A DNA stretch of 57,639 bases from Pseudonocardiales bacterium (GTDB lineage: Bacteria > Actinomycetota > Actinomycetes > Mycobacteriales > Pseudonocardiaceae): positions 1-57,639 of the forward strand of contig JAHEXI010000021.1 of NCBI GenBank assembly GCA_023252195.1, read 5' to 3'. The first letter of the stretch is position 1; the number at the start of each line of letters is the position of its first letter. Below the pieces are notes generated by a model. That model saw only the letters and a program-made list of their open reading frames with translations, was not told where the DNA came from and ran no database searches. Below are positions 12,507 to 32,922 of the stretch, in pieces. Position numbers and translations under genes: made by a program.

Positions 12507-12517
12507 CGACCTGGGAA

Positions 12518-14429: not shown

Positions 14430-14451
14430 GTGCCCGGGACCGACCGGGCAC
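14430..14451 (+). promoter_or_regulatory. Leader hairpin just before the ribosome site
   Basis: GTGCCCGG and CCGGGCAC form an 8-bp perfect stem with a 6-base loop. It ends seven bases before the AGGAGG at 14458-14463 that serves the glycine-rich gene. It could control access to the ribosome site, or end upstream transcription; no U-run follows, which argues against a terminator. Confidence 0.5.
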
Positions 14452-14468
14452 ATTCCTAGGAGGATTTG

Positions 14469-14804
14469 ATGTCTGACGCACTGAGCTTTGTGCAGATGGG
14501 CGGGCAGCACGTGGAGCTGTTGCCGGCACGTACTGTCCTATCGCTGTTCTGTGGGCTCACCGGCAGTACCGGCACTAGCGGTGCGGCTGGCGCGGCCGGT
14601 GCGGCCGGCGCTGCTGGCACTGGTGGCGCGGCCGGCGCCGCTGGTGACGGTGGTGCTGGGGGCGCCAGCCCTGGCGGCGCGCCGACCGTCACCAGCAATG
14701 CGATCTTCGTCGATGGCGATCAGTGGAACACCCTCTCCGGCGCAGCTGGCGGCACCGCTGGCACTGGTGGCACCGGTGGCGCCGCCACTGGTGGTGCTGG
14801 CTGA
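14469..14804 (+). CDS. Gly/Ala-repeat peptide with a conserved-looking leader
   Basis: The 111-residue product begins MSDALSFVQMGGQHVELLPA, then RTVLSLFCGL, followed by about 45 residues of GAAG/GTGG/GDGGAGG repeats. A patch NAIFVDGDQWNTLSGAAG follows and a second short GGTGGAA tail. There is no signal peptide. A leader of about 30 ordinary residues before a simple-sequence core is the layout of a ribosomally made peptide precursor or of PGRS-like surface repeats. I recall similar HVELLPARTVLS starts in actinobacterial hypotheticals. AGGAGG lies five bases before the ATG, and a strong hairpin follows the stop. No modification enzyme is adjacent. Function unknown. Confidence 0.65.
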   Translation: MSDALSFVQMGGQHVELLPARTVLSLFCGLTGSTGTSGAAGAAGAAGAAGTGGAAGAAGDGGAGGASPGGAPTVTSNAIFVDGDQWNTLSGAAGGTAGTGGTGGAATGGAG

Positions 14805-14855
14805 GTCGGGCACTGAAACCGCGTAACCGCAGCCGTGATCGGGCGCTGGGCGATG

Positions 14856-14890
14856 AGGCAGGGGAGCCAGGCACATGGTCTCCCCTGCCT
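14856..14890 (+). terminator. Strong hairpin after the glycine-rich gene
   Basis: AGGCAGGGGAG (14856-14866) pairs perfectly with CTCCCCTGCCT (14880-14890) around a 13-base loop. It lies 51 bases after the stop codon. Only TTCGT follows, so it is an actinobacterial-type terminator without a clear U-run. Confidence 0.6.
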
Positions 14891-15181
14891 TCGTATCGAC
14901 TCCAGTATCGGCTACCGTCGAAATACGCGGTTCCATGCCGGCGTTTGATGTCATCTACGTATTCGCACAACTGGCTCGCTGCTAGGTAGCCCGGCAGGAT
15001 AGGTTAGGTGTGACTACCGATTGCCAGGTCAGGCGAACTGCGTGCAAGATATGTGATGTCAAATCGGTAATGCCGCCGACGAGTCGCTTTCCAGCGCCGT
15101 GGGCAGCTGAGTTGAGTGGGTCGCTAGGAACGGTGAACTGGCTAGGGGGGGCAGGGGTGGCTGGATCGCAGCCGCCCCTCC
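14891..15181. other. Intergenic stretch between convergent genes
   Basis: No gene is supported. It separates the glycine-rich gene from the convergent beta-helix lipoprotein gene. Confidence 0.35.
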
Positions 15182-16336
15182 CTAGCCGGGAGTGTTGTTA
15201 TCCACGTGGGATCCCGGCCGGGATGAGCCGTCGACCTCCACGGTGGGGCGATCCCCGGTGGTGGTATTGCCGGTCACCGTGCACCCCGTCGAGCCCTCGC
15301 TGATCAACACCGCCCGAGTCAAGTTGGGGCCGGAGAAGGTGTTCTGACGCACCACGACGTTGGGCCAGTGCCGCACGTTGACCGCCTGCGCGCCGTTGTT
15401 CGCGCACTGGTTTCCCACGAACGTGATCGACGGCACGCCGTCCGGGGCGGCGCGGTTGCCGTCCTGGTCACCGGTGGCGATCAGGCACTGCGCATCCACG
15501 TTACGGCAGGTGTTACCCGAGATCACCACATCGAAGGTGGGTGGCTTGCTGTTGTCGAGGGTCTGGAAACAGTCCGGGTGCGGCGGACTGCGGTAACCCT
15601 CCGCGGAGATGTCGGAGATGGTGTTGTCGGTGATCCGATGCCCGCTGCCGAAAAACCGCATGCCGTCGGCGTCACCGCCGTGCTGGGACACCACCGTGTC
15701 GCTGATGGTGTTGGCGTGCACGGTGATCCGTTGTCCGGTGATGTCGATACCGTTGCTTGCGACATGAGTCATGGTGTTGGACTCAATCGTCGAGTCGGTG
15801 CACGGATCGCAGGTGATCCCGCCCTGGTCGGTGTCATGGACGGTGTTGTTCCGCGCAGTGATCCCGGCGCCCTCCAGCAGCACTCCACCGCCACCCGCGA
15901 CGGTGAAACCCTCCAGGACGACGTGATCGGCCTTGATCTGCACCTCGTGCACGGTGGCCCCGTCGGCCGCGAGGGTGATCGGCGCGTCCGCGGTACCGGA
16001 TCGGGTCATCATCATGTCGGTGTCACTGAGGTCACCACCAGAAAAGCACACCGTGTCGCCCGCAGCGGCGGCGTCTAGAGCCGCCGGCACGTCATCGGCC
16101 CGGGTGATGGTGTGGGTGCAGCCAGATGGCAAGGCTTGCTGGCCCTGGGCGCCCGGCGGTCCATGTCCCGACGACGAGGTGGTGCACCCGGCGACGACGA
16201 GCAGCAGGCCCAGCAGCGGGATCAACCAACCCGGCACCGTCCTGGCGACCCATCTCACCGCGGCGGCGACGCGGTCAGCCAGCCGCGAGACGACCTCGCG
16301 CTGAGGGTCCGACATAGGGATGAGCCGGAGAGTCAT
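15182..16336 (-). CDS. Right-handed parallel beta-helix lipoprotein
   Basis: The start is at ATG 16336 (MTLRLIP) or 16315 (MSDPQRE). An amphipathic segment and TM stretch LIPLLGLLLVVAGC end in a good lipobox, so the protein is probably lipid-anchored outside the cell. From about residue 110 the sequence is a run of PbH1-type turns: VVLEGFTVAGGGGVLL, ITARNNTVHDTDQGGI, STIESNTMTHVASNGIDITG, VVISGNTCRN, VVVRQNTFSGPN. Such folds often bind or cleave polysaccharides, but I see no catalytic signature. Several Cys pairs (TCDPCTD) may form disulfides. The frame is open upstream to 16648 but that part is not family-like. Confidence 0.8.
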   Translation of the reverse strand: MTLRLIPMSDPQREVVSRLADRVAAAVRWVARTVPGWLIPLLGLLLVVAGCTTSSSGHGPPGAQGQQALPSGCTHTITRADDVPAALDAAAAGDTVCFSGGDLSDTDMMMTRSGTADAPITLAADGATVHEVQIKADHVVLEGFTVAGGGGVLLEGAGITARNNTVHDTDQGGITCDPCTDSTIESNTMTHVASNGIDITGQRITVHANTISDTVVSQHGGDADGMRFFGSGHRITDNTISDISAEGYRSPPHPDCFQTLDNSKPPTFDVVISGNTCRNVDAQCLIATGDQDGNRAAPDGVPSITFVGNQCANNGAQAVNVRHWPNVVVRQNTFSGPNLTRAVLISEGSTGCTVTGNTTTGDRPTVEVDGSSRPGSHVDNNTPG

Positions 16337-16734
16337 GAAACCGACACTACGTGCACCTGCGTTCAGCGTCGGACACGGCGTGAAGCTGGCTGCTGCGAGC
16401 AACGTCGCAGTGCATGTACCGATGGTGGCCCCACGTCTGAGGGCTTCCCGCGCCGACCGCCAGATGTCATGCCACTGCGCGAAGCCGTCCCCCGTGGGGA
16501 TCGCGGCAATCCCTTCGTCGACAGCGTGCTGCTGGTGGTCGGCCCACCAACCTGACGACGAGAACCGGGTTGTAACGGCGACAGCGCGAATGGCGATGAC
16601 ATGGGTAGCCTCCGTGACGCTGTTGGACCCCCGACCTGGCGGCCTCACTGGGGCTTTTTCCTGTCCTACCTCCGTCTGTGCTGCCGATTCGGCCCGGACT
16701 TGGCAAGCTGTTACCCAGCATCCAAGGAGGTCAG

Positions 16735-18150
16735 ATGGCCATGTCCGGCGTGGACCAGCGGACCACCGCCAAGGTGATCCTGATCTCGGTGGTCGCCGCC
16801 GTCGGCGGCTTCCTCTTCGGCTTCGACACCGCGGTGATCAACGGCGCGGTGGACTCCATTCAGGGAGCCTTTCACCTCAGTCCTGGCCTCACGGGTTTCG
16901 CGGTGTCTTGTGCGCTGCTCGGCTCCGCCGTGGGCGCGTGGTACGCCGGCCGGACCGCGGACCACCTGGGCCGGGTGCGGGCCATGGTCATCGCCGCGGT
17001 GCTCTTTGCTGTCAGCGCGGTCGGGGCTGGACTGGCCTTCTCGGTGTGGTCGCTGATCGCATGGCGGTTCGTCGGCGGCCTGGGCGTCGGGATGGCCTCG
17101 GTAATCGCTCCGGCCTACATCGCCGAGGTCGCGCCCGCGCACATCCGCGGCCGACTCGGCTCGCTGCAGCAACTGGCCATCGTCTCCGGCATCTTCGTCG
17201 CGTTGCTGTCCGATGCGTTCCTGGCAAACCTCGCCGGCGGGGCGAGCCAGCAGCTCTGGTTCGGTCTGTCGGCCTGGCGGTGGATGTTCCTCGCCGGACT
17301 GGTCCCCGCCCTGGGCTACGCCGTGCTGGCCCTGCAGATTCCGGAATCGCCCCGATACCTGGTGGCCAAGGGAGAGCTCATCCGCGCCGCTGAGGTGCTG
17401 CGCGAGGTGTTGGGCGCCCGAAGCGTCGAAGCCGTGCAGCGCAAGGTGCAGGACATCGTGGTCAGCCTGCGACGCGAGGACCAACACGCACCGAGGCTGT
17501 CGGACCTGCGCGGACCCCGTCTCGGGCTGCTCCCCATTGTGTGGGTGGGGATCCTGCTATCGATCTTTCAGCAGTTCGTCGGCATCAATGTGATCTTCTA
17601 CTATTCGACCAGCCTGTGGCGTTCGGTTGGATTCAGCGAGTCGGACTCGCTCACGATCACCGTTATCACCTCGGTGACCAACGTCCTGGTCACGCTGATC
17701 GCCATCACCATCGTCGACAAAGTGGGTCGCAAACCGATGCTGCTCGGCGGATCGTTGGGTATGGCGGTGACCCTGGGAACGATGGCTGTGTGCTTCTCTC
17801 AATCGATCGGCATCGGCAAGGACGTCAGCCTGCCTCAGCCATGGGGAACGATCGCGCTGATCGCTGCCAACCTTTACGTCGTGTCATTCGGCACGACCTG
17901 GGGGCCCGTTGTCTGGGTGCTGCTCGGCGAGATGTTCCCCAACTGGATCCGGGCGGTCGCGCTTGCCGTGGCCGCCGCCGCTCAGTGGCTGGCCAACTTC
18001 GCCATCACCACGACGTTCCCGGTCCTGTCGAATGCCGGCTTGTCCTTCGCCTACGGGCTCTACGCGGTCTTCGCCGCGCTGTCCTTCGGGTTCGTACTTA
18101 AGGCGGTCAAGGAGACCAAGGGCCGCGAACTGGAAGACATGACGGGTTAG
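16735..18150 (+). CDS. Sugar-porter (SP) family MFS permease
   Basis: The 471-residue, 12-helix symporter has SP-family signatures: GFLFGFDTAVINGA in helix 1, GRTADHLGRVRA in loop 2-3, RFVGGLGVGMASVIAPAYIA with EVAPAHIRGRLGSLQQL, PESPRYLVAKG before the central loop, QQFVGINVIFYYS in helix 7 and VDKVGRKPMLL in loop 8-9. It resembles XylE/GalP/GlcP-type proton symporters for hexoses, pentoses or polyols; the substrate is open. AAGGAGG lies four bases before the ATG at 16735. It is divergent from the beta-helix gene and convergent with the serine-cycle operon, so it may be a separate unit. Confidence 0.9.
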   Translation: MAMSGVDQRTTAKVILISVVAAVGGFLFGFDTAVINGAVDSIQGAFHLSPGLTGFAVSCALLGSAVGAWYAGRTADHLGRVRAMVIAAVLFAVSAVGAGLAFSVWSLIAWRFVGGLGVGMASVIAPAYIAEVAPAHIRGRLGSLQQLAIVSGIFVALLSDAFLANLAGGASQQLWFGLSAWRWMFLAGLVPALGYAVLALQIPESPRYLVAKGELIRAAEVLREVLGARSVEAVQRKVQDIVVSLRREDQHAPRLSDLRGPRLGLLPIVWVGILLSIFQQFVGINVIFYYSTSLWRSVGFSESDSLTITVITSVTNVLVTLIAITIVDKVGRKPMLLGGSLGMAVTLGTMAVCFSQSIGIGKDVSLPQPWGTIALIAANLYVVSFGTTWGPVVWVLLGEMFPNWIRAVALAVAAAAQWLANFAITTTFPVLSNAGLSFAYGLYAVFAALSFGFVLKAVKETKGRELEDMTG

Positions 18151-18784: not shown

Positions 18785-20053
18785 TCAGGTGACGAGTACG
18801 GCGCGGAAGTCGTTCACGTTGGTCAGGGTGGGACCGGTCACCACCTGATCACCCAGCGTGGCGAAGAAACTGTGCCCGTCGTTGTCGGCCAGCGCCGCTG
18901 CGGCGTCCACCCCAAGGTGCGTGCCGCGGCGCAGGGTGTCCGGTCCTATCAGAGCCCCGGCCACCTCTTCCGTCCCGTCCACGCCGTCGGTGTCGCAGGC
19001 GATGGCGTGGACGTGCTCAGCCCCACGCAGGGCCAGGGCCAGGGACAGCAGCAGCTCGACGTTGCGGCCGCCGCGGCCGGTGCCGCGCACGGTCACGGTG
19101 GTCTCGCCGCCGGAGAGCAGCACGCACGGCGGTGCCGCCGGCTGGCCATGGCGGCGCACCTGGCAGGCGATGCCGGCCAGCACGATCCCGACTTCCCGAG
19201 ACTCGCCCTCCAGCGAGTCACTCAGGATCACCGGTGTGACTCCGGCCTGGCGGGCCACCACCGCGGCGGCTTCCAGCGACTGCTGCGGGGTGGCGATCAC
19301 GTGATTGGTCACCCGGGCCAGCCTCGGGTCGTCGGGTCCAGGGCAACCCGGCGACGTCGCCAAGTGCTCCCGCACTACCGGCGGCACCGGGACGTTGTAG
19401 GCCGCCAGCACCGCCAGTGCCTGCGCCGGAGCGGACGGCTCCGCCACGGTAGGCCCGGAGGCGATCACGGCGGGGTCGTCGCCAGGCACGTCGGAGATCA
19501 GCAAGCCCACGGTGGCAGCCGGGAACGCCGCCGCCGCCAGCCGGCCGCCTTTGATCGCGGACAGGTGCTTGCGCACCAGGTTCATCGCTGCGATCGACGC
19601 CCCGGAGCGCAGCAGCGCGGTGTTGATCGTCTGCTTGTCAGCCAGAGTGATGCCCGGCGCGGGCAACGTCAGCAGGGCCGAGCCGCCGCCGGAGATCAAC
19701 GCCAGCACCAGGTCGTCGGCACCGAGGTCGGACACCAGCTCCAGGATCCGGCGGGCGGCCCGCTCACCGGCGGCGTCGGGCACCGGATGCGCCGCCTGCA
19801 CGATCTCCACGCGCGTGCCCGGCACCGCGTGGCCGTAACGGGTCACCACGAGTCCGCTCAGCGGACCGTCCCAGGCCTGCTCGACCGCCTGCGCCATCCG
19901 CGCCGACGCCTTCCCGGCGCCGACCACAACCACCCGCCCGGGCGGCCGCACCGGCAGGAATCGCGGCACCCGCTGCAGCGGATCCGCGGCCGCCACCCCC
20001 GCGTCGAACATCGCCCGCAACAGCGCTGCCGGATCACCCACTTGCGCACTCAC
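18785..20053 (-). CDS. gckA: Glycerate 2-kinase (MOFRL family)
   Basis: Phosphorylates D-glycerate with ATP to 2-phosphoglycerate, the exit of the serine cycle to central metabolism. The 422-residue protein has the class II GckA/TtuD layout: N-terminal Rossmann part with VVVVGAGKASARMAQAVEQ, HPVPDAAGERAA, LALISGGGSALLTLP and VRKHLSAIKGGRLA, then the MOFRL domain with VLLSGGETTVTVRGTGRGGR and ACDTDGVDGTEEVAGA. The length is normal and the frame intact. It is the last gene of the operon, 109 bp after hprA, with a hairpin repeat in the gap. M. extorquens GckA belongs to the same family. Confidence 0.9.
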   Translation of the reverse strand: MSAQVGDPAALLRAMFDAGVAAADPLQRVPRFLPVRPPGRVVVVGAGKASARMAQAVEQAWDGPLSGLVVTRYGHAVPGTRVEIVQAAHPVPDAAGERAARRILELVSDLGADDLVLALISGGGSALLTLPAPGITLADKQTINTALLRSGASIAAMNLVRKHLSAIKGGRLAAAAFPAATVGLLISDVPGDDPAVIASGPTVAEPSAPAQALAVLAAYNVPVPPVVREHLATSPGCPGPDDPRLARVTNHVIATPQQSLEAAAVVARQAGVTPVILSDSLEGESREVGIVLAGIACQVRRHGQPAAPPCVLLSGGETTVTVRGTGRGGRNVELLLSLALALRGAEHVHAIACDTDGVDGTEEVAGALIGPDTLRRGTHLGVDAAAALADNDGHSFFATLGDQVVTGPTLTNVNDFRAVLVT

Positions 20054-20082
20054 GCTGCGCCCACCGCAACGACGCGGAGTGT

Positions 20083-20142
20083 CGTGAACTCGACGAGACC
20101 GACATCGGAGAGGCTGTGGACGTCGGTCCCGTCGAGTTCACG
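20083..20142. repeat. Dispersed hairpin repeat, copy 1
   Basis: Arms 20083-20105 and 20120-20142 pair over 23 positions with two mismatches (CGTGAACTCGACG...). A second copy with similar arms and loop lies at 47812-47872. It sits between hprA and the glycerate kinase gene, so it could shape the transcript there. Confidence 0.8.
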
Positions 20143-20162
20143 GACAGTGGCGCGCGGCAGAC

Positions 20163-21131
20163 TCACGCCACCCGGCAGGATGGGTCGCGGCCCGCTAGGA
20201 AATCTTGCAGGTTGTCCAGGACGAGCATGCCCATGGCGGTGCGGGTTTCCAGAGTCGCGCTGCCCAGATGGGGCAGCAGCACCGCGTTGTCCAGCTCAAC
20301 CAGTCCCTGCGGGATCTCGGGTTCGCCCTCGTAGACGTCGAGTCCGGCGCCGGCGATCGTCCCGGATCGCAGCGCCTCGATCAGTGCGGAGGAGTCGATG
20401 ACGTCACCGCGAGCGCTGTTGACCAGGAATGCGGTGGGTTTCATCGTCGCCAGCGCCGCGGCGTCGATGAGGTGGGTGTTCTCGGCGCCGCCGGGCATGT
20501 GCAGCGAGACGAAGTCGGCGACGGCCAGCACCTCCTCGAGGGTGCCGACCCGGCGGGCGCCGGGGATCCTGTGGTCGGGCTCGAAGTCGGCCGGGTCGTA
20601 GAAGACCACCGACATGCCGAAGCCGAAGTGCCCGCGGCGGGCCAGCGCCACTCCGATCCGGCCCATGCCCACGATGCCCAGCGTCTTGCCGGTGACGTCG
20701 GCGCCCATCATGTGGGTTGGCCGCCACCCGGTCCAGCGCCCGGCGCGGACCTCGCGTTCCCCCTCGCCGGCCCGGCGGGCGACCATCAGTAACAGGGTCA
20801 TCGCGGTGTCCGCAGTGGTGTCGGTGAGCACGCGCGGGGTGTTGGTGACGACGATCCCTGCCTTGGCCGCGGCGGCGGTGTCGATGTGGTTGTAGCCGAC
20901 GCCGAAGTTGCCGAGGAACTTCGTCCGCAGTTCCCCCTCGAACAGCTCAGCGGGCAGCCGGTCGGAGACGGTGGGCAGCACGACGTCGGCGTACTCCAGC
21001 GCGGCGCGTAACCCGTGGGCCCCGAGCGGGACGTCGTCAGCGTTGAGCCGCACGTCACCGAAGCGCCGCGTCAGCTCGTCCTCGACCGGGGCCGGCCAGC
21101 GCCGGGTGACAACGATGACGGGCTCGTCCAC
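20163..21131 (-). CDS. hprA: Hydroxypyruvate reductase (D-2-hydroxyacid dehydrogenase)
   Basis: Reduces hydroxypyruvate to D-glycerate (and probably glyoxylate to glycolate) with NAD(P)H. The 322-residue protein has the family fold: an N-terminal substrate domain with NFGVGYNHID, the Rossmann motif GKTLGIVGMGRIG, the catalytic Arg in VNSARGDVID, Glu in GLDVYEGEPEIP, and His in LLPHLGSAT. The GTG start at 21131 follows TGGAGG by six bases. It stands between the malate thiokinase genes and glycerate kinase, which makes hydroxypyruvate the likely substrate. The gap to mtkB holds a perfect hairpin. Confidence 0.9.
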   Translation of the reverse strand: MDEPVIVVTRRWPAPVEDELTRRFGDVRLNADDVPLGAHGLRAALEYADVVLPTVSDRLPAELFEGELRTKFLGNFGVGYNHIDTAAAAKAGIVVTNTPRVLTDTTADTAMTLLLMVARRAGEGEREVRAGRWTGWRPTHMMGADVTGKTLGIVGMGRIGVALARRGHFGFGMSVVFYDPADFEPDHRIPGARRVGTLEEVLAVADFVSLHMPGGAENTHLIDAAALATMKPTAFLVNSARGDVIDSSALIEALRSGTIAGAGLDVYEGEPEIPQGLVELDNAVLLPHLGSATLETRTAMGMLVLDNLQDFLAGRDPSCRVA

Positions 21132-21153
21132 GGCGATCCTCCAGCAGGTTGGT

Positions 21154-21195
21154 CGTGAGTGCGTAACAGTGTTCTAACACTGTTACGCACTCACG
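21154..21195 (-). promoter_or_regulatory. Perfect 20-bp hairpin between mtkB and hprA
   Basis: Bases 21154-21173 and 21176-21195 are exact reverse complements with a two-base loop. The right arm contains the mtkB stop codon. A tight GC/AT-mixed stem without a following U-run may slow or process the transcript, or act as a DNA operator in the middle of the operon. Confidence 0.7.
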
Positions 21196-22087
21196 AGCGC
21201 GCGTGTTCTCCGAGCACGCGCGCCACAGTCTCCCCAATGCAAGAGGGATCAGCCGCCACCGTAATACCAGCCGCGGCCAAAATCTTCGTCTTCTCCTGGG
21301 CGGATTCCCCGATGGAAGACACGATCGCACCAGCGTGCCCCATCTTGCGGCCCTTGGGGGCCGACAGCCCGGCGATGTAGGCGATCACCGGTTTGGTCAT
21401 GTGATCGCGGACGTAGTCCGCACCCTCGGCTTCCTGCGGGCCACCGATCTCGCCCACCATGACCACCGCGTCGGTGTCCGGGTCGGTTTCGAACAGTTCC
21501 AGATGATCGCGGAAGGAGGACCCGTTCACCGGGTCACCGCCGATCCCGACCGAGGTGGACACGCCGATGCCCAGCGCCTTCATCTGCGATGCGGCCTCGT
21601 AGCCCAGGGTGCCCGAGCGCCCGATCACCCCGACCCGTCCGGGCAGGTAGATATGCCCGGGCATGATGCCCACCAGCGACTGCCCGGGTGAGATGGTGCC
21701 CGCGCAGTTGGGTCCGGTAAGCGTCATCCGCTGATGCGCCCGGTAGCGCCGCATGTAGCGCTTGACCCGCATCATGTCCTGCATCGGGATGCCATCAGTG
21801 ATGCAGACGCAGAACCGGATCCCGGCGTCAGCGGCCTCCATGATGGAGTCGGCGGCGAACGGCGGCGGCACGAACACGATCGACGCATTCGCCCCGGTCT
21901 CGGCTACGGCGTCTTTCATGGTGTTGAACACCGGACGGCCCAGCGCCTGCTCGCCGCCCTTGCCAGGAGTGACGCCGGCGACCACGGTGGTGCCGTAGTC
22001 GATCATCTCCTCGGTGTGGAAGCGCCCGATGCGCCCGGTGATGCCCTGCACTACCACGCGAGTGTGCTCGTCGATCAGGATGGCCAT
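21191..22087 (-). CDS. mtkB: Malate thiokinase (malate-CoA ligase), small subunit
   Basis: With MtkA it converts malate, CoA and ATP to malyl-CoA. The 298-residue protein has the succinyl-CoA-synthetase alpha fold: CoA-binding VVVQGITGRIGRFHTEEMI, GVTPGKGGEQALG, FVPPPFAADSIMEAADAG, GPNCAGTISPGQS, RSGTLGYEAASQMKALGIG and KGRKMGHAGAIV, where the histidine of GHAGA is the phosphorylated one. Wording such as GIMPGHIYLPG and DGIPMQDMMRVKRYMRRY is close to M. extorquens MtkB as I recall it. It starts 15 bases after mtkA. Succinyl-CoA ligase is the alternative, but the mcl neighbour favours malate. Confidence 0.9.
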   Translation of the reverse strand: MAILIDEHTRVVVQGITGRIGRFHTEEMIDYGTTVVAGVTPGKGGEQALGRPVFNTMKDAVAETGANASIVFVPPPFAADSIMEAADAGIRFCVCITDGIPMQDMMRVKRYMRRYRAHQRMTLTGPNCAGTISPGQSLVGIMPGHIYLPGRVGVIGRSGTLGYEAASQMKALGIGVSTSVGIGGDPVNGSSFRDHLELFETDPDTDAVVMVGEIGGPQEAEGADYVRDHMTKPVIAYIAGLSAPKGRKMGHAGAIVSSIGESAQEKTKILAAAGITVAADPSCIGETVARVLGEHARS

Positions 22088-22102
22088 GACCCTCCCCGCA
22101 AC

Positions 22103-23275
22103 CTAGACACTGACGGTGCCCACGACGGCGACGGCCTTGTGGGCCGCCTCGGCCAGGCTGTCCGCGGTGATGATGGGCAGTCCGGAGTCTCGCAAGATCT
22201 GATGGCCGAGATCGACGTGCGTGCCGGCCAGCCGCACCACTACCGGGATCTTGACGTCGAGCTCCTTGAATGCCGCCACGATGCCCTCGGCAACCCAGTC
22301 GCAGCGGTTGATGCCGGCGAAGATGTTGATCAGCATCGCCTTGACCTTGGTATCGTGCAGCACCGCGCGAAATGCCTTGAGAACCCGCTCTGGTGACGCG
22401 CCACCACCGATGTCCAGGAAGTTCGCCGGCTCACCACCCGCTACTTTGATCATATCCATGGTCGCCATGGCCAGGCCCGCACCGTTGATCATGCAGCCGA
22501 TGTCGCCGTCGAGGCCGACGTAGGCCAGTCCACGGTCGGCGGCGTGGCTTTCCCGGGCGTCTTCCTGGCTACGGTCCCGCAGCTCGGAGATGTCGAGGTG
22601 GCGAAACAGCGCGTTGTCGTCGAAAGACATCTTGGCATCCAGCGCGACGATGCTGCCCTTGGTCGTCACGGCCAGCGGATTGATCTCCAGCATGGTGGCG
22701 TCGAGGTCCCGGAAGGCCCGGTAGGCGCGGCGGAATATCCGGCTGGCCTCGGCGAGCATCGCCGGCTCCAGGCCGAGCGCGAAGGCGATCTCCCGCGCCT
22801 GGAACTCGAGAAATCCGACCGCGGGCTCGATGGTCGTGCGCACCAACGTTTCGGGCTTGGTGGCCGCCAGCTCCTCGATGTCCATGCCACCCTCGGCGGA
22901 GGTGATGATGCACACCCGCTCGATGCGGCGGTCCAGCATGATGCAGAAGTACAACTCGCGGGCGATGTCGGTGGCCTCCTCGACGTACACCCGGTAGATC
23001 AGCTTGCCGCGCGGCCCGGTCTGCTTGGTGACCAATCGCCGGCCGAACATGTCGTTCGCGACGTCTTGGACGTCACGGTCGGAATGGCACACCTTCACTC
23101 CGCCGGCTGCACCGCGGCCGCCGGCGTGTATCTGGGCCTTGACCACCCAGGCGGACCCGCCGATCTCGGTGCACCGGTAGGACGCCTGCTCGGGGTTGTA
23201 GGCCAGGCCGCCAACGGGAATCGGTACGCCGAAGCGGGCCAGGATCTCCTTGGCTTGATATTCGTGAATGTCCAC
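22103..23275 (-). CDS. mtkA: Malate thiokinase, large (ATP-grasp) subunit
   Basis: The 390-residue ATP-grasp subunit pairs with MtkB. It starts [20 protein letters not shown] and has [46 protein letters not shown] and [20 protein letters not shown], then the C-terminal flavodoxin-like part with [20 protein letters not shown] and [20 protein letters not shown] at 23275 is the start, 11 bases after the mcl stop; the frame is open further upstream only as mcl shadow. The length and motifs match both SucC and MtkA; placement between mcl and mtkB points to malate. Confidence 0.9.
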
Positions 23276-23286
23276 GCCCAACCCTC

Positions 23287-24240
23287 TCAGGCCCGGCTCG
23301 CGGCGGCGGTCCGGATCGCCTCGTCCATCGCGATCACGGTCTGAGCCATCCGCTCCGAGGCGGCGTCGATCATCTTGCCGTCCACCGCCGCGGCACCCTT
23401 GCCTTGTGCGGCGGCCCGGCGCAGCGCTTCGATGATCCGCTGGGCTCGGTCGACTTCCGCTGCCGGTGGGCTGAACACCTCGTTGGCCAGCGCGACCTGG
23501 CTGGGATGGATCGCCCACTTACCCTCAGCTCCCAGCGCGGCCGCCCGCCTGGCCCCAGCGCGGAAGCCATCAGCGTCGGAGAAGTCGCCGAATGGGCCGT
23601 CGATCGGGCGCAGCCCATAGGCCCGGCAGGCCACAATCATCCGGGACAGCGCGAAATGCCACTGATCACCGGGGTAGTCCGGGTTCAGGCCACCGATGCT
23701 CACCGTGCGGGCGCGGTTGCTCGCGGCGTAGTCGGCCACCCCGAAATGCAGCGCCTCCAACCGGCCAGGACTGCTCGCGATGGCTTCCACGTTCGCCATT
23801 CCCAGCGCGGTCTCGATCAGTGCCTCGATACCGACTTTGTTCGGGTAGCCCTTGGCCTGCTCGATCTGGTTGATGAGGGCTTCCACGCAGTACAGATCCG
23901 CCGGCACCCCGACCTTGGGCACCAGGATGGTGTGCACCCGGTCGCCCGCCTGCTCCATCACGTCGATGACATCGCGGTACATGTAGTGGGTGTCCAAACC
24001 ATTGATCCGCACCGACACCGTCTTGCCTTTGGCGGCCCAATCGATGTCGCGCAGCGCCTCGACGACGTTGCGGCGGGCCTGCTCCTTGTCCGCGGGAGCG
24101 ACCGCATCCTCCAGATCGAGGAAGACGAAATCGGCGGCGCTGTCCGCCGCTTTGTCGATGAAGCTGGTGTTGGATCCCGGCACCGCCAGCTCACTGCGTT
24201 GCAACCGGGGCTGACGCATCGGGTGCAGGGTGTGGCTCAT
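23287..24240 (-). CDS. mcl: Malyl-CoA lyase (HpcH/HpaI-type CitE fold)
   Basis: Cleaves L-malyl-CoA to glyoxylate and acetyl-CoA. The 317-residue TIM-barrel protein has [33 protein letters not shown] (metal-binding Asp), [50 protein letters not shown] (metal-binding Glu), [14 protein letters not shown] and [17 protein letters not shown]. These blocks match the Mcl1/MclA group rather than short citrate-lyase beta chains. The ATG at 24240 overlaps the sga stop in ATGA, so translation is coupled. Some family members also cleave beta-methylmalyl-CoA, which sequence alone cannot exclude. Confidence 0.92.
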
Positions 24241-25439
24241 GTGGCGCCAGCCTCGGCTTCCAGCGTCGCGGTCGCGCTGCGGTAGTAGTCCTGGGCCGCC
24301 GCGACGCCGGCACCGAGCTCGATTTTGGCCCCGGCGTCGGCCAGTGACATCTCGGCGCTGGCCAGCGCGGCAAGGCACATCACCTCGTTGAGATGTCCGA
24401 GATGACCGATCCGGAACACCTTGCCCGCCACCTTGGACAGGCCACCCCCGAACGATGTGCGGTAGCGGGAGTAGCCGATCCGGCAGACCTCCCCGGCGTC
24501 CACGCCTTCTGGAGTGCGAATGGCAGAGACGGTGTCGGAATGCCATTTCGGATCCAACGCGCACAGCGACAGGCCCAATGCGTCCACCCCGCGACGAACC
24601 CCTTCGGCGAGCCGGTGGTGGCGCGCGAACACCTGCGGCAGGCCTTCGTCGAACAGCAGGTCCAGCGCGGCTCGCAGGCCGTGCAGCATCGGGGTGGACG
24701 GGGTGTAAGGGAAATAACCAAGATCATTACTCGTGAGCATGTCCTCGAAGCTGAAGTAGCAGCGCTGCATCGTCGAGGACTTGTGCGCCTCCAGCGCCTT
24801 GGCGCTGACCCCGAGCAGAGACATCCCGGCGGGCATCATCAAGCCCTTCTGCGAGCCGCTTACCGCGAGGTCGACGCCCCAGGCCTCCTGCTCGAACGGG
24901 ATAGACGCCAGCGACGACACCGCGTCGACGTACAGCAGCGCGTCCGAGCCGGCCGCGTCCATCACCGCGCGGACCGCGGCGATGTCGGAGGTCACCCCGG
25001 TGGCGGTCTCGTTGTGGCACACGAAAACGCCCTTGATGGTCTTGTCCTCGCCCAGGTGACGCGCGTAGTCCTCCAGCGGGACGCCCTCGCCCCATTCCCG
25101 CTCGACGCAGATGACGTCCAGGCCCAGGCGCTTCGCCATGGTGGCCCAGAGGTGGGAGAACAGGCCGAAGCTCGACATCAGCACCCGGTCGCCCAGGTTG
25201 AGGGTGTTGGTGATCGCCGCCTCCCACGCCCCGGTCCCAGAGGAGGGATACATGACCACCCGGCCGGTCCCGTTGGCGAAGACCGTCTTGAGATCTGCGA
25301 ACAGCGGCAGGGTGAGCTCAGGGAAGTCCGGTGCCCGGTGGTCCTGCATCGGCACGTTCATCGCGCAGCGCACGGCGTCCGGCACATTGGTGGGACCAGG
25401 AATGAACAGGTGCATGGGTCCTGCAGGCACCCGCGTCAC
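24237..25439 (-). CDS. sga: Serine-glyoxylate aminotransferase
   Basis: A PLP enzyme that moves the amino group of serine to glyoxylate, giving hydroxypyruvate and glycine. The 400-residue class V aminotransferase begins with [14 protein letters not shown] and has [50 protein letters not shown] and [16 protein letters not shown], whose lysine binds PLP. An HLGHLNEV block near the C-terminus is typical of SGAT/AGAT enzymes. Both ends overlap neighbours by four bases (ATGA), a very tight operon arrangement. Alanine-glyoxylate activity is a possible side reaction. Confidence 0.92.
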
Positions 25440-26737
25440 CGCCCTTCAGAGTGGGGTGCGAGCTGGGGATACAGCGGGTAACGCTTGGCCAGTACCCGGG
25501 TGCGTTCGCGCAGCGACGCTCGTTTGGCCTCGTCGAGCTCACCGGTCAGCGCCTCGGTGATGATCTTGCCGATCTCCCGGAAGTCGGTTTCCTGCAGCCC
25601 CCGGGTGGCCAGCGGGGCGGTCCCGATCCGCAGGCCGGACGCGACGGCCGGCGGTCGCGGGTCGAAGGGCACCGCGTTGCGGTTGACGGTGACCCCGATC
25701 TCGGCAAGCCGGTCCTCGGCCTGCTTGCCATCCAGCGGAGATTCCCGCAGGTCAGCCAGTAGCAGGTGGACGTCGGTGCCGCCGGTCAGGACGTTGATCC
25801 CGCCAGCGAGCATCTCCTCCGCGAGCACCCGGGCGCCGGCGCGGGTACGCCGTTGGCGCTCCCGGAACTCCTCCGATGCGGCAATCCGCAGCGCCACCGC
25901 CTTAGCGGCGATCACATGCATCAGCGGGCCGCCCTGCCACCCCGGGAACGTCCGAGAGTTGATCTTCTTCTTGAATTCTTCCTTGCAGAGGATCATGCCG
26001 CTGCGCGGGCCGCCCAGCGTCTTGTGGATCGTCGTGCTGACGACGTCGGCGTAGGGCACCGGACTGGGGTGTTCTCCGGCGGCGACCAGCCCGGCGAAAT
26101 GCGCCATGTCGACGAACAGGTAGGCGCCCACCTCGTCGGCGATCTCCCGGAAGCGGGCGAAGTCGAGCTGGCGGGGGTAGGCCGACCAGCCGGCGAGGAT
26201 CATCTTCGGCCGGTGCTCCTTGGCCAACCTGGCGAGCTCATCCATGTCCACCCGGGAGGTCTCCCGGTCCACGCCATAGGGCACCACGTTGTAGTTCAGG
26301 CCAGAGAAGTTGATCCTCATGCCGTGCGTGAGGTGCCCGCCGTGGTCGAGCTTCATCCCCAGGAACGTGTCGCCGTTGTCCATCAGCGCGCTGAAGACGA
26401 TCGCGTTGGCCGACGCGCCGCTGTGCGGCTGCACGTTGGCGTGCTCGGCTCCGAACAGCTCCTTGGCCCGGTCGATGGCCAGCTGCTCAGCCACGTCAAC
26501 GTGCTCGCAACCGCCGTAGTAGCGCCGCCCCGGGTAGCCCTCCGCGTACTTGTTGGTGAGCACCGAGCCCTGGCAGTCCAGAACGGCTTGGGGCACGAAG
26601 TTCTCCGACGCGATCATCTCCAGGGTGTTCTCCTGGCGGGAGAGCTCGTTGTCGAGCACCGCCGCGATCTCGGGGTCGACCTCGGAGACCGGCTTGGTGA
26701 AGAAGTCAGCGGGCAAGTCAGCGGGCTGAGTACTCAT
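25436..26737 (-). CDS. glyA: Serine hydroxymethyltransferase
   Basis: Joins glycine and methylene-tetrahydrofolate to serine, the C1 entry step of the serine cycle. The 433-residue PLP enzyme has [88 protein letters not shown] and the PLP-lysine block [15 protein letters not shown]. The ATG at 26737 follows GAGGA by seven bases; the long upstream open frame is not coding. It is the first gene of the serine-cycle operon. A second, housekeeping glyA may exist elsewhere in the genome. Confidence 0.95.
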
Positions 26738-27999: not shown

Positions 28000-28395
28000 C
28001 GCCGCCGCTCCACAGCGGCATCCGGTCAGAGACACCTGTTCGAGTGCCTCCGGCAGAGCCCCATCAGACTCGGGGAAATTCTAAGCACACGTAGTTAGGG
28101 CTGGACTGGCATCGGCCAAAGACGTGGCTTTGGAATCGCCCGCCTCGACCGGGTCCTCGGCGCGCTGGCGGAGTCCGAAGTCAGCTTTGGCAACGACGTC
28201 GCCGATTGCGACTAGGTCGGTCCATAGGTCTGAGATTATCGGATCTGATAAACGAGATGCGCGGCCAGGCGGTGGCGGCTCTACCATCCATCCCGCCGAG
28301 GTTGCTCGACGTTTGTCGCCCGGCACCAGGTTTGCGTGAGGTCGAGACGTAGTCGGCGAACGATGCTCGTCACTGTCCGTGTCGCTCAGGGTCTC
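28000..28395. other. Intergenic stretch after MazEF
   Basis: No gene is supported. A minus-strand frame at 28081-28485 has no motif and runs through the tandem hairpins, so it is not likely to be coding. Confidence 0.35.
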
Positions 28396-28452
28396 GGCAT
28401 TGCTGCGCGCAGCAATGCCAGGGTGGCAACTTTTGCCGCAAAGTTGCCACCC
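28396..28452. repeat. Two tandem strong hairpins
   Basis: GGCATTGCTGCG/CGCAGCAATGCC is a perfect 24-bp palindrome (28396-28419). One base later GGGTGGCAACTTT (28421-28433) pairs exactly with AAAGTTGCCACCC (28440-28452) around six bases. They lie between MazF and the next gene on the same strand and may end transcription in both directions. Confidence 0.7.
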
Positions 28453-28590
28453 ATGGCACCTCTGCAAAGCATCCACCCATCTCATTCATGGGACGTTCGT
28501 GACGCATGTGGTTGCTGGGAACGAAATCTCAACGAGGTGCTGGTGTGGGAGATGGCCGTGACGCGATGCGGTTACGGCAGACTCCGTGAC

Positions 28591-29046
28591 ATGAGTACCC
28601 CGTCAGAGCGGATCTTTGCGCAGCTCGAGGATGACGAGGATGACACCGAGTTGCGCGACTTCCTACCGCCGCAGGCTCGGCATCCCATGACGCTCGCTCG
28701 AACAGCGGATCGGATCGCGGATGGTGTTGCACTGCGAGAAGCAGCGGCGGACTTCCTTGACGATCTTCGGTGGGCCAGGGGGCACCATGACGTCGCGCAG
28801 CGGATCGCCGAGCGGCCACGCGATGTCGATCCGCGTACCGATGCCTACCTCGGAGCTTTGGCCGAGCACATCGCTGCCGAGCGTGCACTAGCCGTACCAC
28901 CCTGGTCCGTCGAAGCGGGACGGTTTCTCACGCGTATCTGGTGGCCGCGCTACCCCGGGCTGTGGGCACGGGCCATTGTGGAGTCACCCGCAGCGTTTCG
29001 TCGGCGGGGCATCCTGCTCGGTGCCGGAATGTTGAGCAGGGTCTAG
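28591..29046 (+). CDS. Conserved protein paired with a nucleotidyltransferase
   Basis: The 151-residue soluble protein has DDTELRDFLPPQARHPMTLA, RTADRIADGVALREAAADFL and PPWSVEAGRFLTRIWWP and an AFRRRGILLGAGMLSRV C-terminus. I recall the same two-gene unit (this family followed by a DUF6036-like nucleotidyltransferase) in many actinobacteria, behaving like a toxin-antitoxin or defence pair, but the role is unproven. ATG at 28591 is preferred; the frame is open upstream through the hairpins. It ends three bases before the next start codon. Confidence 0.7.
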   Translation: MSTPSERIFAQLEDDEDDTELRDFLPPQARHPMTLARTADRIADGVALREAAADFLDDLRWARGHHDVAQRIAERPRDVDPRTDAYLGALAEHIAAERALAVPPWSVEAGRFLTRIWWPRYPGLWARAIVESPAAFRRRGILLGAGMLSRV

Positions 29047-29048
29047 CT

Positions 29049-29474
29049 GTGCGCCGAGACGAGATACTGGCGGCTCTCACGGCACTGGGAGCCGACTTGG
29101 CTGAACGCGGGTTGGTCGCCGATCTGTATGTCGTGGGCGGAGCAGCCATCGCTCTGGCGTATGACGAACGCCGGGCTACCAGAGACATCGATGCAGTGTT
29201 CGCGCCGAAGAACGAGGTCTACGCCGCCGCCCGGGTCGGTGCCGCGCTCGACCTACCCGACGGCTGGCTCAACGATGCTGTCAAGGGTTTTCTGCAAGGG
29301 CCGGACACCTTCCCCACCAGCGTCCTCGATATGCCGGGGCTGCGGTGCGAACAGCTCGGGCTGGGAACCGCCGATCAGGTGCTCGACCTCGTGGAAGAGG
29401 TCGGTCACCCGCGGTTGCTCACGCCGCAGGTCGGACTCTTTGTCAGGTCGGTCATGGACGTCACTGGCATGTGA
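29049..29474 (+). pseudogene. DUF6036-like nucleotidyltransferase with an internal deletion
   Basis: Residues 1-95 look normal: a YVVGGAAIALAYDERRATRD-IDAVF nucleotidyltransferase core with the DxD aspartates in RDIDAVF, then PDGWLNDAVKGFLQGP. After VLDMPGLRC the sequence jumps to GLGTADQVLDLVEEVGHPRL, the family's C-terminal part. As I recall the family, a block of about 30-40 residues (VASPEYLLAMKLLAARxxRDxxD) is missing here. The deletion keeps frame, giving 141 instead of about 180 residues. GTG at 29049 is the start. The enzyme is probably inactive, so the pair may be half broken. Confidence 0.6.
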
Positions 29475-29760
29475 CCGGGCCAGGATCGCGTTCCGTAGCT
29501 GCTGGGTCGTCGGCCAGGCACTGGACGTCGGAACTTAACCGGAAGCACGCACGATCTGCGCGACTTCCGCCGCAACGGCCTTTCGTTCGGCCAGCTCCCG
29601 AGCGGCTCGAGCACTTCGGACTCGAGCGCGTCGAGCACCGCATCGAACCGGTCTGCCAGATTCCGCACGACGTGGTCGTGATCGTAGGAGTCGCGGCGGC
29701 AGACCCATCAGAACAGCGCACTCACGGCAAGGAGCTGCCGTTGCGGAGGATGAAACCGCG
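29475..29760 (-). pseudogene. Antitoxin fragment related to the gene at 31909-32436
   Basis: Bases 29541-29612 match 32134-32205 at roughly 85-90 percent. On the minus strand both encode ARELAERKAVAAEVAQIVRA-type sequence, here ending in a stop just after it. Upstream, FDAVLDALESEVLEPLG lies in another frame. This is a broken paralogue of the HTH antitoxin; nothing else in this stretch is recognisable. Confidence 0.55.
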
Positions 29761-30000
29761 CTAGGCGGCGGTGCCCTCGATGAGCTGGTCGATGGTGGGA
29801 TTGATCAACACCGAACCGTCCGGTAGCTGCACGGTCGGTACGGTCTGGTTGCCTCCATTGACGTCTGCCACGAATGCGGCGGCCGCTGCGTCGTGCTCGA
29901 TGTCGACTTCGCGGAAACCGATGCCGGCACGCGCCAGCTGCGCTTTGAGCCGCCTGCAGTAGCCACACCACACGGTTGTGTACATCGTCAGTTCGCTCAC
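29761..30000 (-). CDS. mrx1: Mycoredoxin (glutaredoxin-like, mycothiol-dependent)
   Basis: The 79-residue thioredoxin-fold protein reduces mixed disulfides with mycothiol in actinobacteria. It reads LTMYTTVWCGYCRRLKAQL, with active-site CGYC, then NGGNQTVPTVQLPDGSVLIN, which contains the cis-Pro TVPT motif, and a short C-terminal helix. This matches Mrx1 (Rv3198A type) in motif and length. The GTG at 30000 is chosen; the frame extends to 30060 with unlikely residues. Its presence points to a mycothiol-using actinomycete. Confidence 0.9.
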   Translation of the reverse strand: MSELTMYTTVWCGYCRRLKAQLARAGIGFREVDIEHDAAAAAFVADVNGGNQTVPTVQLPDGSVLINPTIDQLIEGTAA

Positions 30001-30240
30001 GCTCGGTGCCAACAGTGCAGGCGTGCGGGGTGTTCCTGCCGACGTCGGACGGCGGACCATGGTCGGCTACGGCCGGCCCTCGAGTGGTCATTTTCGGTTG
30101 CCGCGTGTGAGGGACGCCCTTCACCCCCAGACGCGCCCGGCGGTCCACACGATCGTCCGGAGCTTTCGAGTCCCCGCGCGTGGCTTCGATCGATCTGCGT
30201 GACACCGCTTGCGCCGCAGATTGTGCTAGCTCTGGCGGTC
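30001..30240. other. Intergenic stretch upstream of mrx1
   Basis: This separates mrx1 from the 3' end of the phosphotransferase-like gene. I see no gene in it. Confidence 0.35.
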
Positions 30241-30298
30241 CCGAACTAAACAGCAATGCTGTTTAACGCGGGCTGGACAGCGTTGCTGTTTAGTTCGG
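30241..30298. terminator. 58-bp compound hairpin at the end of the phosphotransferase gene
   Basis: CCGAACTAAACAGCAA (30241-30256) is the exact reverse complement of 30283-30298. Inside, AACAGCA/TGCTGTT forms a smaller hairpin. The right arm holds the TAA stop of the minus-strand gene. The arrangement fits a bidirectional terminator, though such an exact 16-bp repeat could also be the end of a lost small element. Confidence 0.6.
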
Positions 30299-31207
30299 AG
30301 GTCTGAGAGCGGAGCGCTCGAGTACTCCGCTCCATTTCGTGTCCGGATTGTCATCACGCCAAGTTTGGAGCCGCACCTTGATCTCTTCGACCACCTTGCG
30401 GCTACGGTGGCCATGCTGCATGAGCCAGGTGGTGGCGCACATCTCCCACAGTCGACGGTAGGTTGCATAGCCATCCCAGGTCCGTATGTCGAAACCGTAG
30501 GCGTCAGCAAAGTCGCGGTAGCACTGCTCGGGCCGACCGAAGCGAGTGACCGCAACGGCAGTGTGGACGAGATCCCACTCGCGGGGCCCGATAGCCACCT
30601 GTTCAAAGTCGATGAACACGGGATGCCCAGCGCGGAACAAGACGTTACCGACCTCGGCTTGCCCGTGGACGACGCCATCCGGTAGCACAGGTTGCACCTG
30701 ATCCAGCTCGACGGCGATCCGCTCTGACCACCGAGTAAGCATCGTGACCTGCTCAGTCGCGTAGTGACCGCCCAGATCGATCAATCGCCGATTGGATGCG
30801 ACGAGCGGGCACCACGGCTTAACTGGAACCCGCAGCTCAGCGGTACGCTGATGAAAGATATGCAGTAGCTGTCCCAATGATCCATAGAGATCGTCGCGGT
30901 CTGGCTCATCGAGTCTTTGCCATACGGTGCCCAGGCAGTTTCGGGCTTTGAGCGGTTGCTGAGCGGGAATCTCGGCAAGCTGCGCGGTGGGGATATCGAG
31001 TCGAGCGAGTTCGTGCACCAGGTCAATCTCACGGTGCACATCGGCTTCGTTGGTAGTAGGATACATGACTCGCAGGACATGCGCCTCGCCTATACCGAAG
31101 ACAGCGTTGCTACCAAAGCGCAGCAGCTCAGGTTCGTGCCCCCGAAGTCCGGCCAGTTCACACATCGCGATGGCTACGTGCCGGGCGTCCGTTTCGGTCC
31201 AGTCCAT
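30290..31207 (-). CDS. Aminoglycoside-phosphotransferase-fold protein with altered catalytic loop
   Basis: The 305-residue protein has an APH/choline-kinase fold: N-lobe LRVMYPTTNEADVHREIDLV, then WQRLDEP, and the C-lobe loop VVHGQAEVGNVLFRAGHPVF-IDFEQ. In active members this loop is HGDxHxxN; here the Asp is Gln (HGQAEVGN), while the metal-binding Asp of IDFE is kept. It may be a pseudokinase or have changed chemistry. ATG 31207 is the likely start; the longer frame upstream is not family-like. The gene ends in a strong hairpin. Substrate unknown; antibiotic resistance should not be assumed. Confidence 0.7.
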   Translation of the reverse strand: MDWTETDARHVAIAMCELAGLRGHEPELLRFGSNAVFGIGEAHVLRVMYPTTNEADVHREIDLVHELARLDIPTAQLAEIPAQQPLKARNCLGTVWQRLDEPDRDDLYGSLGQLLHIFHQRTAELRVPVKPWCPLVASNRRLIDLGGHYATEQVTMLTRWSERIAVELDQVQPVLPDGVVHGQAEVGNVLFRAGHPVFIDFEQVAIGPREWDLVHTAVAVTRFGRPEQCYRDFADAYGFDIRTWDGYATYRRLWEMCATTWLMQHGHRSRKVVEEIKVRLQTWRDDNPDTKWSGVLERSALRPPN

Positions 31208-31870: not shown

Positions 31871-31881
31871 GAATAGCCAGC

Positions 31882-32890: not shown

Positions 32891-32922
32891 GACCGATCTG
32901 TTGAGATTAGTTCGATATTAGA

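Follow-up and report, generated by a model that had tools for sequence, protein, structure and literature searches.

The serine cycle has been found chiefly in Proteobacteria, and actinomycete methylotrophs are usually tied to the ribulose monophosphate (RuMP) cycle. Among the closest described systems is that of Methylorubrum (Methylobacterium) extorquens AM1, which combines the ethylmalonyl-coenzyme A (CoA) pathway with an icl-minus serine cycle, a variant that needs no isocitrate lyase. Here we describe a stretch of 57,639 nucleotides from a Pseudonocardiales bacterium (GCA_023252195.1, contig JAHEXI010000021.1; hereafter the window) that carries a seven-gene operon predicted to encode the same dedicated enzymes as the AM1 cycle. 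The window corresponds to C10:1-57639 of an assembly (hereafter the window genome) of 4.74 Mb in 48 contigs that is 97.8% complete. We consider it likely that the operon supplies dedicated serine-cycle enzymes for the assimilation of one-carbon (C1) units bound to tetrahydrofolate (THF), and that the cycle is icl-minus, with formate as its probable C1 donor in this species. The resemblance to AM1 includes a malyl-CoA lyase (Mcl) whose nearest solved structure, 5ugr, presumably comes from AM1 itself, the presence of crotonyl-CoA carboxylase/reductase (Ccr) where isocitrate lyase was not found, and a formate-THF ligase with a cyclohydrolase-like gene. Unlike AM1, the host is an actinomycete that encodes ribulose-1,5-bisphosphate carboxylase/oxygenase (RuBisCO), gives no match to the methanol dehydrogenase that uses pyrroloquinoline quinone (PQQ), and carries the genes for phosphoenolpyruvate (PEP) carboxylase (ppc) and formate-THF ligase (ftfL) off the contig of the operon.

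Several other systems resemble the locus in part. Clusters from Rhodobacterales and other Alphaproteobacteria (Cypionkella, Gemmobacter, Roseobacter, Mesorhizobium, and others) share its sga-mcl-mtkA-mtkB order. The Rhodobacterales set groups with the block from Pseudonocardiaceae, yet the two are parted by well-supported branches. Unlike the window operon, the 80 loci fetched from named genomes seldom carry hpr alongside the four genes (17 loci) or glyA at ≥50% identity within 10 kb (3 loci). Here and below, the 80 named loci are the best of at least 586 confirmed Mcl relatives, and records near the window genome were possibly left out of that collection. The Mcl proteins of Pseudonocardia nigra DSM 104088, Pseudonocardia sp. 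N23, and Actinophytocola sp. Dino_bin13 are 84-85% identical to that of the window and fall in the same clade. The P. nigra cluster has the order glyA-ppc-sga-mcl-mtkA-mtkB-hpr, with PEP carboxylase inside and folD near, whereas the operon of the window has gck but no ppc. The plant photorespiratory C2 cycle has the steps of serine-glyoxylate aminotransferase (SGA), serine hydroxymethyltransferase (GlyA), hydroxypyruvate reductase, and glycerate kinase in common with the operon, but Mcl and malate thiokinase (MtkAB) are not part of it, and the glycerate kinase of the window is of the MOFRL type. Finally, among NCBIfam models, the window aminotransferase is nearest to BhcA of the beta-hydroxyaspartate cycle (548 bits, under the cut-off of 650). 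The remaining six operon genes include no BhcB, BhcC, or BhcD type, and the rest of the genome was not searched for these.

The portions of the published papers that our literature search covered touch on C1 metabolism in actinomycetes and other bacteria. One paper detected no tetrahydromethanopterin-linked formaldehyde route in Amycolatopsis methanolica and refers to a RuMP operon of Mycobacterium gastri (PMC8879981), actinobacterial methanol users have been listed (PMC3763247), and a study of Streptomyces treats RuMP genes and, in the text covered, names the serine cycle merely as a general option (PMC11648730). Eight metagenome-assembled genomes (MAGs) labeled by 13C-methanol carry serine-cycle genes, with Pseudonocardia unmentioned in the covered part of that source (PMC6908837). 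A serine cycle has been described for Binatota, together with methylotrophy signatures in Actinobacteria MAGs (PMC8262859), and Pseudonocardia dioxanivorans is among the studied strains that have key enzymes of the ethylmalonyl-CoA pathway (PMC9925536). No report of the serine cycle in Pseudonocardiaceae was found in the open-access literature searched, again in partial texts and with subscription papers mostly outside its scope, and we do not claim a first report. The pathway is already known; the host lineage is what is new.

The operon consists of seven open reading frames, all on the minus strand at window positions 18785-26737 and without internal stops (gene starts were chosen inside long open frames):

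25436..26737, minus strand: glyA, serine hydroxymethyltransferase, 433 amino acids (Pfam SHMT, NCBIfam PRK00011)
24237..25439, minus strand: sga, serine-glyoxylate aminotransferase, 400 amino acids (solved relative 6pk1)
23287..24240, minus strand: mcl, malyl-CoA lyase / beta-methylmalyl-CoA lyase type, 317 amino acids (solved relative 5ugr)
22103..23275, minus strand: mtkA, malate-CoA ligase (malate thiokinase) large subunit, 390 amino acids (NCBIfam PRK14046)
21191..22087, minus strand: mtkB, malate-CoA ligase small subunit, 298 amino acids (SucD family, adjoins mtkA)
20163..21131, minus strand: hpr, hydroxypyruvate/glyoxylate reductase-type D-2-hydroxyacid dehydrogenase, 322 amino acids (Pfam 2-Hacid_dh_C, 2-Hacid_dh)
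18785..20053, minus strand: gck, MOFRL-type glycerate kinase, 422 amino acids (Pfam DUF4147, MOFRL)

The gene content computed here agrees with an initial annotation of the window, which had described seven intact, closely spaced genes in the order glyA-sga-mcl-mtkA-mtkB-hpr-gck amid sequence otherwise full of broken genes. Overlaps of 4 bases join glyA to sga and sga to mcl, and the gaps that follow measure 11, 15, 59, and 109 bases; the overlaps and the first two gaps have the values given before. Positions ~10100-15200 and 28000-37200 of the window indeed hold few short coding-like segments.

Enzyme identities come from NCBIfam and Pfam profiles and from comparison with the sequences of solved structures. 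The strongest of these predicted assignments are MtkA and Mcl. MtkA scores 663.7 bits against PRK14046, malate--CoA ligase subunit beta (cut-off 604), and also passes two SucC-type cut-offs; the match of Mcl to 5ugr, a malyl-CoA lyase/beta-methylmalyl-CoA lyase, has an E-value of 1.2e-121 over an alignment of near full length. MtkB passes the cut-off of the SucD family (430 bits against 336), and GlyA matches Pfam SHMT at E 1.7e-154 and passes PRK00011 (584.8 bits against 335). Judged by profile scores, SGA, Hpr, and Gck are assignable to family level only. The best solved relative of SGA is 6pk1 (E 3.3e-115), a serine--glyoxylate aminotransferase that we take to be the Arabidopsis photorespiratory enzyme, and the protein reaches no NCBIfam cut-off, BhcA being its top model. 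Hpr has glyoxylate reductase chains as its best solved relatives and falls below every NCBIfam cut-off listed, including that of PRK13243, glyoxylate reductase (280 bits against 455). Gck has a putative glycerate kinase, 2b8n, as a solved relative and scores 224 bits against the NCBIfam glycerate 2-kinase model, below its cut-off of 550.

From this gene content, we infer the enzyme activities, the direction of flux, the use of formate, and the completeness of the ethylmalonyl-CoA pathway in the following route. GlyA would combine methylene-THF with glycine to give serine, SGA would pass the serine amino group to glyoxylate, yielding hydroxypyruvate and glycine, and Hpr and Gck would convert hydroxypyruvate to 2-phosphoglycerate. 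Enolase, PEP carboxylase, and malate dehydrogenase, encoded outside the operon, would then lead to malate, which MtkAB and Mcl would cleave to acetyl-CoA and glyoxylate. Given the presence of Ccr and the lack of an isocitrate lyase match, regeneration of glyoxylate would most likely proceed by the ethylmalonyl-CoA pathway, with the same Mcl making the second cleavage. The C1 units would most likely enter as formate in this species, by way of formate-THF ligase and the cyclohydrolase-like protein.

The initial annotation had pointed to PEP carboxylase, formate-THF ligase, C1-oxidation enzymes, and glyoxylate-regenerating enzymes as parts of such a cycle to look for in the genome. We searched for them in 13 genomes, comprising the 11 of the genus (the window genome and congeners G001-G010) and the same-family genomes G037 and G057. 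The annotation had held that a lack of PEP carboxylase and of any C1-oxidation gene, combined with a lack of C1 incorporation, would be damaging; PEP carboxylase and formate dehydrogenase are both encoded in the window genome. The PEP carboxylase gene lies on a contig other than that of the operon (C41:153397-156102, 976 bits), and the enzyme was found in 11 of the 13 genomes. Ccr exceeds its cut-off in all 13 genomes (in the window genome at C41:25023-26213, 607.8 bits against 378.55), whereas isocitrate lyase was found in 0 of the 11 genus genomes searched and is present in G037 and G057. Among ten genomes searched for CoA mutases, eight genus genomes have three matches each, and G037 and G057 have four. 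The third mutase of the window genome (C14:15405-16865), a candidate ethylmalonyl-CoA mutase, scores 533 against the methylmalonyl-CoA mutase cut-off of 876; its counterpart shares the ccr contig in G004, G007, G009, and G010 but is on a different contig in the window genome. Neither methylsuccinyl-CoA dehydrogenase nor mesaconyl-CoA hydratase was recognized by eye in the stretches around ccr, and no genome-wide search for them was made. As a separate observation, a molybdopterin dehydrogenase gene beside ppc (C41:156169-157405; L140:11170-12406) is fragmented in the window genome and also in G007 (L196, with three further genes between), and beside ppc in G001 it is open over 696 amino acids (L184).

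Formate-THF ligase is encoded in the window genome, again off the operon contig, and in seven others of the 13 (G001, G005, G006, G008, G009, G037, and G057). Its gene stands beside one for an FTCD_C cyclohydrolase-like protein in a cluster at C48:70074-79745 that also encodes AhcY, MetK (by eye), a PfkB kinase, a methylene-THF-reductase-like protein, a protein of 501 amino acids, and a core methionine synthase. G001, G005, G006, and G008 are the congeners nearest by Mcl (98-99%), and all have the ligase; its presence in the window genome and these four suggests that formate entry is typical of the sub-clade rather than of the genus. Formate dehydrogenase alpha exceeds its cut-off in five of the 13 genomes (the window genome, G005, G006, G008, and G037), with lower-scoring relatives in the other eight. 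G009 has a formate-dehydrogenase-like set next to its genes for formate-THF ligase and a cyclohydrolase-like protein (neighbors assigned by eye).

Three further features of these regions deserve mention. The 501-amino-acid protein (C48:71044-72549; L138:9044-10549), encoded between the methylene-THF-reductase-like and core methionine synthase genes, has no Pfam or NCBIfam match and is possibly a novel type of folate or methyl-transfer enzyme. At C5:24907-29555 (L181:7907-12555), the gene for formate dehydrogenase alpha has one of the aldehyde ferredoxin oxidoreductase family directly upstream and a NuoE/NuoF-like fusion after it. In G002, G005, G006, G007, G008, G009, G010, G037, and G057, formate-dehydrogenase-like genes contain one in-frame TGA, which usually falls in a comparable part of the profile, a pattern typical of selenocysteine enzymes; none is listed for the window genome.

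A number of results weigh against dedicated C1 assimilation or against its details. In the search of 13 genomes, G003 and G008 gave no match to PEP carboxylase. Five of the 11 genus genomes gave none to formate-THF ligase (G002, G003, G004, G007, and G010, of which G002 is 98% and G007 97% complete), so formate cannot serve the whole genus as its C1 source. At 82, the score of the cyclohydrolase-like protein stays below the FchA cut-off of 275. The mtkB gene of G004 (L152) has one in-frame stop, either a true defect or an assembly error, and only mcl-mtkA-mtkB were found at the locus of Pseudonocardia sp. N23. The window genome has no match to the PQQ-type methanol dehydrogenase, a single weak match (37.7 bits against a cut-off of 625) to the type that depends on N,N-dimethyl-4-nitrosoaniline (NDMA), and, for N-methylglutamate synthase, only a match of 30% identity in a 1549-amino-acid frame that we read as glutamate synthase.

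Two other C1 sources were considered for the window species and set aside. Methanol was rejected because, of the two dehydrogenase types searched (PQQ and NDMA), neither exceeds its cut-off, and methylamine via N-methylglutamate was rejected because, of the 13 genomes, only G037 and G057 have a close relative of the P. nigra gene. Elsewhere in the set, the NDMA-type enzyme passes its cut-off in G057 only and a PQQ dehydrogenase does so in G009 and G010. The nearest solved relatives of the G010 protein are ethanol dehydrogenases (444 bits), followed by XoxF (374 bits), and we did not count the G009 and G010 enzymes as methanol dehydrogenases, the comparison with solved enzymes applying to the G010 copy only. 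In G009, the PQQ-dependent alcohol dehydrogenase gene (C109; L175:7366-12370) stands beside pqqB, pqqC, pqqD, and pqqE (by eye).

Conservation was computed for Mcl across 120 genomes (the window genome, 10 congeners, 61 others of the same family, and 48 from other families of the order). Among the matches listed, Mcl at ≥83% identity occurs in all 10 congeners, in two of the 61 other same-family genomes (G037 and G057), and in none of the 48 from other families. The gene is split across two contigs in G009 and present in two copies in G037. In the genus loci, sga, mcl, mtkA, and mtkB co-occur to the extent that the short fetched stretches extend. The gck gene adjoins the operon in the window genome, G002, G007, and G009, and none was seen beside hpr in G003 and G004. 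G002 and G009 have, between hpr and gck, a gene of ~535 amino acids that the window lacks at this place and that Pfam identifies in G009 as a MurJ-type flippase.

Among named genomes, the three 84-85% identical carriers introduced above are followed by members of the Alphaproteobacteria, Gammaproteobacteria, and other groups; Mcl at 70-74% identity also occurs in four Actinomycetota MAGs, of which three are titled as Acidimicrobiia. The genes sga, mcl, mtkA, and mtkB (≥50% identity for every gene) share strand and order in 47 of the 80 named loci, and some of the remaining 33 are cut by contig ends. This conserved order and the recurrence in congeners indicate that the operon is more than a chance arrangement. 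The relatives outside the genus are also informative about linkage. One contig of G037 carries formate-THF ligase and folD upstream, followed by sga-mcl-mtkA-mtkB-hpr-glyA-ppc. G057 has sga-mcl-mtkA-mtkB-hpr on one contig, with ppc and glyA on the opposite strand. A second G057 contig bears N-methylglutamate pathway genes (by eye) and a gene of the sarcosine-oxidase-beta type that exceeds its cut-off, together with folD and formate-THF ligase. Near the P. nigra cluster is a glutamate-synthase-domain gene that we read as N-methylglutamate synthase. Such a gene, which points to methylamine, is found in P. nigra, G037, and G057, whereas the window genome has no true match. Thus, the sister clusters look like C1-assimilation clusters that are probably fed by methylamine.

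The initial annotation had taken the lack of defects in the operon as a sign of selection. This view is supported by our calculations of the pairwise ratio of nonsynonymous to synonymous substitution rates (dN/dS), which range from 0.01 to 0.30 for every window gene compared and show purifying selection. The partners were G001, G002, G003, G004, G007, G010, G037, G057, and P. nigra, with gene coverage that varies by genome and is limited to G002 and G007 for gck.

Tree grouping bears on the origin of the block. In an Mcl tree of 99 rows (midpoint root, with outgroup paralogues on very long branches), the 15 rows on the Pseudonocardiaceae side form a clade (100/98); rows L014 and L024 of the tree are probably two copies from one bin. 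This clade joins 18 rows from Rhodobacterales and one unclassified alphaproteobacterium (98/97), whose Mcl proteins are 73-80% identical to that of the window, within a larger alphaproteobacterial set. Four other Actinomycetota rows are placed elsewhere. A tree of concatenated sga-mcl-mtkA-mtkB (60 rows, six of them without one gene or more) likewise joins 11 Pseudonocardiaceae-side rows (Shimodaira-Hasegawa-like approximate likelihood ratio support, 100) to 12 Rhodobacterales rows (100). Jointly these 23 rows make up one side of a branch (100), and the midpoint root lies on that branch, so the four-gene tree alone gives no direction of transfer. In quick single-gene trees, starred support is confined to groups within the genus for mtkA and mtkB and to the Pseudonocardiaceae-side clade for sga; none of these three trees gives starred support to a Rhodobacterales sister set. 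Other Rhodobacterales (Roseovarius, Thalassococcus, and Puniceibacterium) are scattered elsewhere, and the exact donor is therefore not pinned down. These results suggest, as the simplest reading, a single lateral transfer of the sga-mcl-mtkA-mtkB block into Pseudonocardiaceae. We infer the direction of that transfer, with one entry from a donor that was probably Rhodobacterales-like.

Three other explanations of the operon were weighed against dedicated C1 assimilation. The most serious is that it salvages glyoxylate, including photorespiratory glyoxylate formed after oxygenation by RuBisCO. SGA, GlyA, Hpr, and Gck would lead from glyoxylate to 2-phosphoglycerate much as in the plant C2 cycle, with methylene-THF supplied by glycine cleavage, and Mcl and MtkAB would run in reverse, replacing malate synthase by forming malate out of acetyl-CoA and glyoxylate. 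RuBisCO (PF00016) exceeds its cut-off in nine of 15 genomes (the window genome, the 10 congeners, G037, G057, N23, and P. nigra), namely, seven of the 11 in the genus, including the window genome, plus G037 and N23. At C31:99455-106180 (L192:7455-14180) of the window genome, it is followed by cbbS and cbbX, which marks it as form I, and a LysR-type regulator, an aldolase, and a phosphoribulokinase (PRK) gene are near (all by eye). With RuBisCO and a PRK-like gene at hand, the amino-acid branch of the operon could serve salvage, which is a further point against the C1 reading. Salvage is also consistent with the lack of either searched methanol dehydrogenase type in the window genome, with the five genus genomes in which formate-THF ligase was not found, and with the relationship of SGA to 6pk1. 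However, no RuBisCO match was obtained in G007 (97% complete), G005, G008, G057, or P. nigra, and G006 has a sub-cut-off fragment. G007 nevertheless keeps all seven genes at dN/dS of 0.13-0.28, and G057 and P. nigra likewise have the module. Moreover, PEP carboxylase is linked to the module in P. nigra and G037 and formate-THF ligase lies upstream of it in G037, neither of which salvage needs, and a plain C2 cycle has no need of Mcl and MtkAB. We regard salvage as a fair and real rival, although clearly the less probable account. The suggestion of C1 assimilation made in the initial annotation gains from the MtkA score, the separate SucCD pair described below, ppc, and the formate genes, which together make it the better-supported prediction, and the glyoxylate and photorespiration alternatives named alongside it remain because RuBisCO is present.

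It might instead be proposed that Mcl serves only acetate assimilation through the ethylmalonyl-CoA pathway, with the remaining genes being amino-acid housekeeping functions that travel along. The universal presence of Ccr among the 13 genomes and the lack of isocitrate lyase matches in the genus would fit, as would the finding that the window genome has a single Mcl-type gene at E 1e-30. However, MtkA passes the malate-CoA ligase cut-off, and to our knowledge MtkAB has no role in that route of acetate assimilation. The gene order kept in 47 of the named loci also argues against passengers, and we judge this explanation improbable. Even less credible, to the point of being very nearly dismissed, is a misannotation in which MtkAB is the housekeeping succinyl-CoA ligase and Mcl a citrate-lyase-like paralogue. 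MtkA and MtkB do pass SucC- and SucD-type cut-offs, and the solved relatives of MtkA are all named as succinyl-CoA, citryl-CoA, or ATP-citrate enzymes, with no malate-CoA ligase structure listed. The initial annotation had conceded that MtkAB grouping firmly with succinyl-CoA ligases as the only SucCD copy would speak against a serine cycle. A second SucCD pair is in fact encoded at C48 of the window genome, 40% identical to MtkA and 49% to MtkB, which led us to reject MtkAB as the housekeeping SucCD. In addition, beyond the window genome, its congeners, G037, and G057, the best Mcl matches in the searched genomes reach no more than 51% identity, and the seven of these placed in the Mcl tree fall outside the serine-cycle rows. 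Housekeeping misannotation is therefore already disfavored.

Returning to dedicated C1 assimilation as the preferred reading, we can tentatively sketch a broader picture, one that we hold to be possible rather than probable as a whole. The host would belong to an uncultured genus, probably of Pseudonocardiaceae, that combines the Calvin cycle with a laterally acquired icl-minus serine/ethylmalonyl-CoA cycle, the sub-clade of the window being fed by formate and without methanol or methylamine oxidation. A serine-cycle operon and RuBisCO in one genome would mean that two carbon-assimilation cycles may coexist, and it can be tested under what conditions each of them carries carbon. If the serine-cycle reading is correct, its presence as a module in all 11 genus genomes and in the cultured P. 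nigra would widen the range of organisms that take part in soil C1 turnover, would offer a Gram-positive system for the assimilation of formate or methylamine, and would clearly exemplify the passage of a central carbon module, as a block, from Alphaproteobacteria to Actinomycetota. The availability of P. nigra in culture makes this reading directly testable.

The remaining features of the window concern its flanks. A sugar-porter gene of the major facilitator superfamily (16678-18150, plus strand) adjoins gck and is also beside gck in G007, where it is 89% identical; G007 is the sole match among 11 relative loci, several of which stop short of that place. An IS240-type transposase domain is encoded at 6296-6934, and NAD(P) transhydrogenase genes (PNTB, PNTB_4TM, and AlaDh_PNT domains) occupy 53974-56803 on the minus strand near the right end.

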